Both the position numbers and the translations under genes were made by a program. A DNA stretch of 37,681 nt from a virus: positions 1 to 37,681 of the IMG/VR virus record IMGVR_UViG_3300003891_000001. One strand, written 5' to 3'. Positions 13,525 through 15,239 of this stretch are shown piece by piece. The notes under the pieces were generated by a model. It had not been told where the DNA came from. It searched no databases and was given only the letters and a program-made list of their open reading frames with translations. Each line of letters begins with the position of its first letter. Position 1 is the stretch's first letter.

Positions 13525-13553
13525 TTGACATTCATTAAATTTTATGATATATT
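13525..13553 (+). promoter_or_regulatory. Early rightward promoter (leaderless)
   Basis: TTGACA (13525-13530), 17-base spacer, TATATT (13548-13553), then ACAACC and the ATG of the XRE gene at 13560. The spacing to ATG is the same 6 bases as in the divergent promoter. Confidence 0.8.
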
Positions 13554-13559
13554 ACAACC

Positions 13560-13766
13560 ATGACACAAACCGAAATGGCTAAAAAATTAGGCATTTCAAG
13601 AACTTATTTAAATGGTATCCTCAATGGCAAAAGAAAACCCTCAATTAAGTTAGCCAAAAAGATAGCAAAGTTAATGGGAATATCTTACCTTGAATTAAGG
13701 AAAGATATAAAAGAAATTTTACTTGATTCACTGGATGACCTTCTAAGGAATAGAAAAGCAATATAA
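13560..13766 (+). CDS. XRE-family helix-turn-helix repressor
   Basis: 68 aa. The N-terminal helix-turn-helix is clear: QTEMAKKLGISRTYLNGILN, then SIKLAKKIAKLMGI, as in Cro/CI-type regulators. A short helical tail may dimerise. The gene is at the centre of the divergent early control region and its ATG is at the predicted transcription start, with no ribosome site. It probably regulates one or both early promoters. Without an integrase in view, it may serve a Cro-like timing role or a plasmid-like prophage state. Confidence 0.8.
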   Translation: MTQTEMAKKLGISRTYLNGILNGKRKPSIKLAKKIAKLMGISYLELRKDIKEILLDSLDDLLRNRKAI

Positions 13767-13777
13767 TGCGGGGGCGG

Positions 13778-13801
13778 TCTCTACATTGAGGGGAGTAGAG
13801 A
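13778..13801 (+). promoter_or_regulatory. Stem-loop after repressor gene
   Basis: TCTCTAC pairs with GTAGAGA across a 10-base loop, in a G-rich setting, 12 bases after the XRE stop. There is no U-run, so it is not a normal terminator. A weak TATAAT overlaps the XRE stop. The following 50 bases hold a 7-codon mini-ORF before the 13852 gene. Confidence 0.35.
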
Positions 13802-13851
13802 GGGGCAGTTTATCTGACTCTATGAAAGTGAGCCTCCGTCAATAAAAAACA

Positions 13852-14137: not shown

Positions 14138-14326
14138 ATGATTGATAAAATTGAAAAAATATTTGGTTATGCATTTTGGACATTTATTGTTTATCTTTTT
14201 GCAATTAGTTGCTATGGAGTGGGAGAAAAACAGGGTAGTTTTTGGATTGGACTTTTTGGATGGTGGCTCTTCGCAATACCCATTGAATGGTTCATAAATA
14301 GAGACAATCCCGACCCCAAACCTTGA
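14138..14326 (+). CDS. Small membrane protein, 62 aa
   Basis: ATG follows one base after the previous stop, so the two are coupled. Two hydrophobic segments lie around residues 8-26 and 35-52. No family recognised. Its stop codon lies within the -35 box of the next promoter. Pairing with the secreted 13852 product suggests a two-component envelope function. Confidence 0.55.
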   Translation: MIDKIEKIFGYAFWTFIVYLFAISCYGVGEKQGSFWIGLFGWWLFAIPIEWFINRDNPDPKP

Positions 14327-14351
14327 CATTCGATTAAAAATGTGATATGAT
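14323..14351 (+). promoter_or_regulatory. Promoter for structured RNA and replication genes
   Basis: TTGACA (14323-14328), 17 bases, TATGAT (14346-14351). Expected start near 14358. This is the one consensus promoter here whose transcript has a leader and an SD-like AGAGG. Confidence 0.78.
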
Positions 14352-14373
14352 AATTTTTAAAGAGGCAGGCAAT

Positions 14374-14463
14374 ATGGAAGCATTAAATCAAAAAAATAAA
14401 AACCAAAAGCAAGGGGTTGTTAGGAAAGCCTGCCCTCCGAGAGATCGGAATGCTTCCACCTAA
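14374..14463 (+). CDS. Possible leader peptide, 29 aa, inside the structured RNA
   Basis: ATG at 14374 has AGAGG 8 bases upstream, partly within helix arm a. The ORF runs through arms b, c, a' and b' and stops at 14461-14463 inside terminator arm c'. Translation would therefore unfold the terminator. The peptide is basic and Gln/Asn/Lys-rich in its first half. It may be real or a chance ORF. Confidence 0.35.
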   Translation: MEALNQKNKNQKQGVVRKACPPRDRNAST

Positions 14464-14481
14464 CAGCCCCTTTGTTTTTGG
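14403..14481 (+). terminator. Intrinsic terminator / attenuator before the initiator gene
   Basis: GGGGTTGTTAGG (14413-14424) pairs with CCTAACAGCCCC (14459-14470) with one G-U, followed by TTTGTTTTT. The long loop carries the a', tetraloop and b' segments that can pair upstream, so termination may be conditional. The replication gene starts 15 bases after the tract. Confidence 0.65.
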
Positions 14482-14495
14482 TGGAGATAATATGT

Positions 14496-15239
14496 GTGGC
14501 ATCACCTCAATTAGAAAATGGATATACTTCTATTGCCAATGAAATTTTGGAAGCACTTTGGAAAATAAATTTATCCCCATATGAGTATAGAGTGCTTTTA
14601 TATTTATTAAGAAAAACTTATGGATGGCAAAAGAAAACGGATAGAATAACCTTATCTCAATTTGCAAGAGATATTGGAATTGACCGTAGATTAATTTTTA
14701 GGGCTATTAAAAAATTGTCATCTAAACAGATGATTGTCATCTATAAAGATGACAAAAATCGTTTAAGTTATGGATTTCAAAAGGATTATGACAAATGGTT
14801 TTTGTCATCTAAAAAGATGACTGTCATCTATAAAGATGACAAGGTATCATCTAAACAGATGACAAAACTGTCATCTAAACAGATACTCACAAAAGAAAAT
14901 ATAATAAACTATACAAAAGAAAATATATACATTGATCGTTTTAATGTTTTTTGGAAAGAATATCCTAAAAAAATAGGCAAGGGATATGCAAGAAAAATTT
15001 GGATGAAATTGAAACCATCCCAAGAACTTTTAGAAAAAATGCTTTCTACCTTAAAAGCATATAAAGAAACGGAGCAATGGAGAAAAGAAAATGGTAAATT
15101 TATACCCCATCCTTCGACCTGGCTTAATCAAGGAAGATGGGAAGATGAAGTTGAAACCATAAAACCAGAACCCCAGCCTATAGAAACTGGAGTCCCTGAT
15201 TGGATAAAGGAGGCGATTAAAGATGGATGGAAAGGATAA
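14496..15239 (+). CDS. Replication initiator, O-like, containing the origin
   Basis: Start GTG 14496 is chosen because VASPQLENGYTSIANEILEAL matches the N-terminus of phage replication protein O families, and GGAG lies 9 bases upstream. Residues 1-80 form a winged helix (LSPYEYRVLLYLLRKTYGWQKKTDRITLSQFA). Residues ~75-135 are encoded by the iterons and read as repeats of SSKQM and IYKDDK. The C-terminal domain, FNVFWKEYPKKIGKGYARKIW to FIPHPSTWLNQGRWED, is common in phage and DnaT-like replication proteins. It should bind the iterons within its own gene and recruit the host helicase, as in lambda. It overlaps the next gene by 17 bases. Confidence 0.85.
   Translation: MASPQLENGYTSIANEILEALWKINLSPYEYRVLLYLLRKTYGWQKKTDRITLSQFARDIGIDRRLIFRAIKKLSSKQMIVIYKDDKNRLSYGFQKDYDKWFLSSKKMTVIYKDDKVSSKQMTKLSSKQILTKENIINYTKENIYIDRFNVFWKEYPKKIGKGYARKIWMKLKPSQELLEKMLSTLKAYKETEQWRKENGKFIPHPSTWLNQGRWEDEVETIKPEPQPIETGVPDWIKEAIKDGWKG
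14716..14940 (+). repeat. Replication origin: six palindromic iterons plus AT-rich stretch
   Basis: Six copies of TGTCATCT-N4-AGATGACA, each 20 bases, start at 14716, 14735, 14803, 14822, 14845 and 14869. Copies 1-2 and 3-4 are spaced 19 bases with one-base overlap. Copies 2 and 4 are perfect; 1, 3, 5 and 6 deviate in one arm. An A/T-rich stretch follows (14889-14940), a likely unwinding element. The arrangement matches lambda-type origins inside gene O. Confidence 0.85.

Follow-up and report, generated by a model that had tools for sequence, protein, structure and literature searches.

The window (the whole 37,681-nt stretch of viral DNA analysed here, positions 1 to 37,681 of IMG/VR record IMGVR_UViG_3300003891_000001) carries a replication initiator gene of the Phage_rep_O type, and the segment between this gene and the promoter ahead of it is made up of the complementary arms listed in Table 1. 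On the predicted transcript the arms follow one another in the order a-b-c-a'-b'-c' and are succeeded by the initiator ribosome binding site (RBS). An earlier note had described this order together with helices of 7, 9 and about 22 bp, of which the first two were said to be perfect and the last not. The order can be read directly from the DNA, a and c have the stated lengths, and b is one pair longer than given; a/a' and b/b' are fully complementary and c/c' has small irregularities. The b/b' and c/c' helices share no bases in the window. As judged from its sequence, c/c' is a putative intrinsic terminator, a stable hairpin ending in a U-tract, and the near-consensus promoter noted previously is also in place. 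Two features had been overlooked: arm a overlaps the Shine-Dalgarno region of a short leader ORF, and arm b starts at the U of the leader AUG (14374).

Table 1. Coordinates of the interleaved-helix element and the adjoining initiator gene in the window.
Feature	Position (strand)	Remarks
Sigma-70-type promoter, TTGACA-17-TATGAT	14323..14351 (+)	11/12 consensus, TG ahead of -10; -35 TTGACA 14323-14328, 17 nt spacer, -10 TATGAT 14346-14351
Transcription start, predicted	about 14358 (+)	inferred from promoter
Helix arm a, GGCAGGC	14364..14370 (+)	7 bp with a', 100% complementary
Leader ORF, 29 codons, MEALNQKNKNQKQGVVRKACPPRDRNAST	14374..14463 (+)	stop TAA 14461-14463 inside c'
Helix arm b, TGGAAGCATT	14375..14384 (+)	10 bp with b', 100% complementary
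A-rich linker, b to c	14385..14402 (+)	18 nt
Helix arm c, 5' side of terminator-like hairpin	14403..14424 (+)	about 22 bp with c'
Helix arm a', GCCTGCC	14428..14434 (+)	within terminator loop
GNRA tetraloop hairpin, CCGA-GAGA-UCGG	14437..14448 (+)	between a' and b'
Helix arm b', AATGCTTCCA	14449..14458 (+)	directly 5' of c'
Helix arm c' and U-rich tract, intrinsic-terminator-like	14459..14481 (+)	contains TTTGTTTTT
Initiator RBS, GGTGGAG	14480..14486 (+)	overlaps c' end
Replication initiator Phage_rep_O, GTG start	14496..15239 (+)	PF04492, 3.6e-22; PHROG replication initiation proteins

Several other features of the neighbourhood were recorded. Inside the initiator gene (14721-14885), repeated TCATCTnnAnAGATGAC inverted repeats resemble origin iterons as in lambda O, and the SSKxM-type peptide repeats that this region encodes recur in the initiators of two related loci, L149 and L150. 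Upstream of the element (13525-13766), a second near-consensus promoter (TTGACA-17-TATATT) is followed by a 68-aa Cro/CI-like HTH gene; this promoter region and the start of the gene are kept in the sister phage L013, where a quite different, primase-like replication module then follows. The stretch from the HTH gene to the next ORF (13767-13850) is G-rich and partly self-complementary, and is possibly another structured RNA.

The interleaved-helix pattern at 14358-14481 is real. With all three helices in place its energy is -62.3 kcal/mol, and none of 2,000 dinucleotide shuffles of 14358-14490 reached this value or even -45 kcal/mol. When c/c' was held fixed and the rest was shuffled, a b helix of at least 10 bp arose in 10 of 20,000 sequences, and an interleaved pair of 7-bp a and b helices in 1 of 20,000. 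Nested folding of 14340-14500 retained only c/c' and the small GNRA hairpin (-47.9 kcal/mol, z -3.6); a nested fold can accommodate no more than a subset of the three helices.

No covariance model in Rfam 15 matched the window at gathering score; the same search of 20 related loci returned only unrelated tRNA, and a relaxed search of the element gave nothing near gathering score. An HDV-like ribozyme, in which the order a, b, a', hairpin, b' is similar, was rejected for want of an Rfam hit and of the expected J1/4 GG and P3 hairpin, which are absent by eye. DNA homologues of the window RNA were not found in phage records at blastn sensitivity, nor in viral contigs with an exact seed, and a looser gapped seed produced chance hits. 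The phage closest to the window by its terminase (L013, 93% aa) has another replication module and lacks a significant element. None of six isolated phages with rep-O genes has a significant element either, and in the five of these that are annotated rep closely follows or overlaps another gene. Our survey of the open literature turned up only comparison systems, which, with few subscription journals covered, is weak evidence of novelty.

Because DNA relatives of the window RNA were not found, we collected relatives by the N-terminal domain of the initiator, as 146 loci, about 140 more and a last set. Removal of near-duplicates left 210 upstream regions, later 225, most of them from phages unrelated at the DNA level. 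The phage contigs in which the element was found are of varied origin, among them MAG contigs labelled Ignavibacteriales, Omnitrophica, Gracilibacteria and Proteobacteria; the hosts are mostly uncultured. A simple density scan for the abcabc order had a high background in GC-rich loci. Scored against shuffles, the interleaved triple beat all 40 in 25 of 144 loci, and a scan for the core alone (helix b crossing hairpin c) beat all 50 in 47/210, compared with 6/204 and 5/206 at control positions 500 and 900 nt further upstream in the same loci. Among loci fetched later and not used for setting the method, 5/15 scored equally well. The statistic in this first scan was helix b plus half of c; since a strong terminator alone could inflate such a score, it was replaced by a test conditional on c, in which the hairpin is picked independently of b and shuffling is confined to the flank and loop. 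A long-loop hairpin lies ahead of rep in 96 of the 225 loci, and in these 96 a b helix was found at p<=0.005 in 18 (0.5 expected) and at p<=0.05 in 31 (4.8 expected); the counts at the control offsets, at p<=0.005, were 0/30 and 1/36. The lists of positive loci include chance hits, such as a rep-proximal hit in L240 that lies inside an HNH coding sequence. Loci without the element form the majority of rep-O loci, and the window's nearest initiator homologues (L148-L150) are among them.

Between lineages the arm sequences are wholly different and their positions alike, as in one example with a at about -130 from rep, b at -115, c at -85, a' at -65, b' at -50 and c' at -30. The gap from b' to c' is 0-2 nt in 26 of the 56 positive loci, and a predicted promoter matching at least 10/12 consensus positions lies no more than 45 nt upstream of b in 23 of them. 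The 12 nt at the c' end contain a mean of 5.6 T over the positive loci (background 3.4). Other parts of the initial description hold for the window and travel less well. The GNRA hairpin is not common to other loci, and the A-rich linker, strong in the window, is only mild across loci (0.37 vs 0.32 A). A third helix crosses b in the window and in L229, L181, L182, L162, L164 and L156; it is nested inside b in others (e.g. L193, L154 and L402) or is missing. Comparison of topologies gave enrichment of the acb and bac orders as well, which by eye often reflects a long terminator split in two or a nested third helix. We therefore do not claim three mutually crossing helices, true of the window, as the conserved feature. 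On sequence grounds, what is conserved is a core of two helices, b and terminator c, that interleave, and the triple in the window is one variant of it. In L164 and other loci the loop-closing pair of c is often U-G, with c ending in T and c' starting with G (GATT/AGTC and CATT/AGTG; GGT/GCC is a further example of the closing sequences).

A search for covariation among homologues with interleaved helices, which the earlier note had proposed, gave compensatory changes in the two families that could be aligned. In L416, L250 and L297, all 24 pairs of b and c are paired in all three members. Both bases have changed in 6 of these pairs, of which 2 are in b and 4 in c, and pairing drops to 37-46% when the partner is offset by 1-3 columns. 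In L306 and L425, 3 pairs are changed on both sides. The convergence of unrelated lineages, in which helix order is kept while sequence identity is lost, is a second, independent form of covariation. Loss of the a or b complementarity from a locus that is otherwise kept would speak against the element. L148, L149 and L150, which are the closest initiator homologues having full upstream sequence, lack the whole element and not a or b alone, and the two alignable families, which have c, also retain b through the compensatory changes. The proposal of a new regulatory RNA between promoter and initiator is well supported by its presence in dozens of lineages, by the two covarying families and by the lack of an Rfam match; the RNA may, as the earlier note suggested, gate replication or be a free small RNA. 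Outside the helices, a short AGCCGTNA is kept in the terminator loop of L416, L250 and L297, its position shifting by a base.

The placement of b with respect to a start codon recurs. An ATG whose A lies exactly one base before b is found in 10 of the 56 positive loci, compared with about 1 for each other position. Reading frames that begin at ATGs in the helix arm are open for a median of 24.5 codons; for the other two frames the median is 6.5 (p = 1.4e-4). ATGs for this test were chosen by their position relative to the arm only, an automatic choice that is imperfect; in L416 an upstream ATG was picked instead of the one at the b arm. In 9/32 cases the leader stop is no more than 20 nt from the rep start (3/64 for other frames); in the window it lies about 33 nt upstream of rep. 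The leader peptides show no sequence conservation and the frame is not the same in L416 as in L250, ruling out a conserved leader peptide; it therefore appears that initiation and translation matter and not the product. 'PPRD'-like residues in a few leader peptides were judged coincidental.

Element-like hits are also found before other genes. When all loci were scanned strictly for the core with a T-rich end, 28 hits fell in the 15 kb immediately upstream of rep and 82 in the rest of 1.12 Mb, both strands included. The latter include hits before a 62-aa protein (L252, -180 from rep), an 85-aa protein (L183, -773, minus strand), a gene other than rep (L160, -833, minus strand), an HNH-like gene (L240, -557) and other phage genes (L276, -613; L368, -1318). 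From their sequences these hits look real, having a promoter, a start codon at b and a downstream RBS, and the element is thus not restricted to initiators.

Nested-model calculations predict that b and c form in succession. In the window the probability of b/b' is 0.89 before c' is transcribed and 0.00 afterwards, with c/c' at 0.92 in the full RNA. Averaged over 47 loci, the value for b drops from 0.74 to 0.20 and that for c is 0.73. As b and c share no bases, their mutual exclusion would rest on topology and on short linkers in five loci (L177, L360, L383, L386 and L401), which are too short for a coaxial stack of b and c. We infer that once c lies within a closed loop, a c' still tethered to the polymerase is unable to wind around it. 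The 18-nt linker of the window is long enough that b and c could be folded simultaneously, and there exclusion is not forced.

We consider it fairly likely that the element is a transcription attenuator in which the loop of the terminator is complementary, as an antisense sequence, to the region around the start codon of a leader ORF carried by that transcript. Production of the phage replication protein would probably be determined by this arrangement. Sequence statistics support the anatomy, the promoter position, the U-tract, conservation through covariation and convergence, the AUG placement, the long leader frames and the predicted folding order; termination, the direction of the ribosome effect and any action in trans are the proposed part. 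Transcription would start just upstream of a and b, with the first start codon in or beside b. Given the order of synthesis (b, linker, c, then a'-b'), b/b' would form first, together with a/a', hiding the leader start codon and holding c in a closed loop around which the polymerase-attached c' would be unable to wind fully. If b/b' were prevented or displaced, c/c' would form and transcription would terminate, giving an RNA of about 120 nt with b' displayed in its loop. A ribosome that had begun translating the leader ahead of the synthesis of b' would stop b from pairing and, as the frame usually runs to or through c, would also cover c, leading to read-through into rep. Several observations count against this model. 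In several loci the predicted transcription start lies at or beside the start codon, so that the transcripts would be leaderless; and the leader frames of L181, L183 and L258 end before c, so that covering of c by the ribosome is a weaker part of the model. The lack of shared bases between b and c, the non-conserved leader peptide with its shifting frame, the chance hits among the positive loci and the absence of the element from most rep-O loci also count against it.

The b' arm of the terminated RNA could, in addition, pair in trans with b of another nascent transcript and block its leader, which would provide feedback on copy number or immunity specific to self. Selection for recognition of self would be expected to leave just this pattern, in which the sequence turns over completely and self-complementarity is strictly kept, and we tentatively entertain a widespread class of phage riboregulators in which b/b' is a topological antiterminator and the terminated RNA a trans-acting signal for immunity or copy number. 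It seems rather unlikely that such trans action is the main function, with terminated RNA from resident copies shutting off the rep transcripts of identical incoming or sister genomes in the manner of P4 CI RNA. Selection for self-recognition would fit the turnover, b' would be displayed in a hairpin loop, and P4 CI RNA is described as terminating transcription of replication genes early through seqA/seqC pairing (PMC4825925). This role would, however, require lysogeny of these phages and accumulation of the RNA; turnover can also come from drift with compensation, and pairing in cis explains the same data.

That all helices form together in a static pseudoknotted RNA, a free and stable species that binds a protein or host target and for which read-through into rep is incidental, seems to us unlikely. 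The abcabc order is the L-type pseudoknot topology, the terminator would give a defined RNA of about 120 nt, this RNA would be protected from 5'-dependent decay by b lying at or close to its 5' end, and elements precede other genes too. Against this, the linkers of the five loci named above are too short for the coaxial full fold, an arm placed on an AUG with a long leader frame is at odds with a free RNA, and the strict scan showed a strong preference for the position before the initiator RBS. Attenuation of the plasmid type by a countertranscript from the opposite strand, following the logic of pT181 and pIP501, is very improbable. An initiator with a leader and a terminator is, from general knowledge, its usual setting, but antisense promoters matching at least 10/12 positions occur in only 3/56 loci within 250 nt after c' and in 0/56 inside the element (control 5/52), and the antiterminator arm b does not overlap the terminator arm c. 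Finally, an ordinary terminator insulating rep from the promoter, with the complementarity of a and b due to chance, is scarcely tenable: terminators before genes are common and many loci have c alone, but this reading is contradicted by the tests conditional on c, by the covariation of b in two families and by the fixed AUG offset.

Should the attenuator reading hold, the element would be an undescribed family of phage riboregulators before replication initiators, linking translation and termination, within about 120 nt, to an RNA topology of interleaved and not overlapping helices. As its sequence is lost and its architecture kept, covariance-model searches for single families miss it and a search by helix order finds it. 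It would also provide a concrete system for asking whether termination can be blocked topologically by a loop of RNA that closes ahead of terminator completion. If the RNA also acts in trans, RNA-based superinfection immunity would be far commoner than that of P4.

Known systems share parts of this arrangement. In the rep attenuators of pT181 and pIP501, the rep mRNA ends early at an intrinsic terminator under alternative pairing, with overlapping pre-emptor and terminator arms and a countertranscript; b and c, in contrast, have no bases in common. In IncI/IncB plasmids of the ColIb-P9 type, translation of a leader ORF and a pseudoknot govern the initiator gene (PMC10286972, citing Asano and Mizobuchi 1998). 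The window has a putative leader ORF and interleaved (pseudoknot-type) helices ahead of its initiator gene, but the IncI switch is translational and uses a separate antisense RNAI, whereas here antisense promoters are not enriched and the terminator is one of the interleaved helices. The C4 RNA of P1/P7 is likewise a phage RNA with complementary sequences; these are probably loop-displayed, block a ribosome binding site and give heteroimmunity (PMC12197685). Its target is the antirepressor ant mRNA; in the element described here the complementary segment lies in the terminator loop of the same leader, ahead of rep. Gifsy-1 IsrK has a phage promoter, a short RNA ended by a terminator and a read-through mRNA with a small ORF, the short isoform acting on its own mRNA in trans (PMC4825925). 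A promoter, a terminated short RNA and a read-through mRNA with a small ORF are predicted here too. In IsrK, however, the ORF is downstream of the terminator and the sRNA activates it, and it is translation and not transcription of an initiator that is controlled; here the leader ORF starts before the terminator and the downstream gene is the initiator. In P4, phage replication genes are controlled by premature termination through short RNA complementarities within the leader of their own transcript (PMC4825925), and in both cases a leader segment is complementary to another segment of its own replication transcript (a/a' and b/b' in the window). P4 CI RNA is released from a longer transcript by processing and has pairing sites to either side of it, whereas in the element described here the 5' end would pair with the terminator loop within about 120 nt, with the start codon in the 5' arm.
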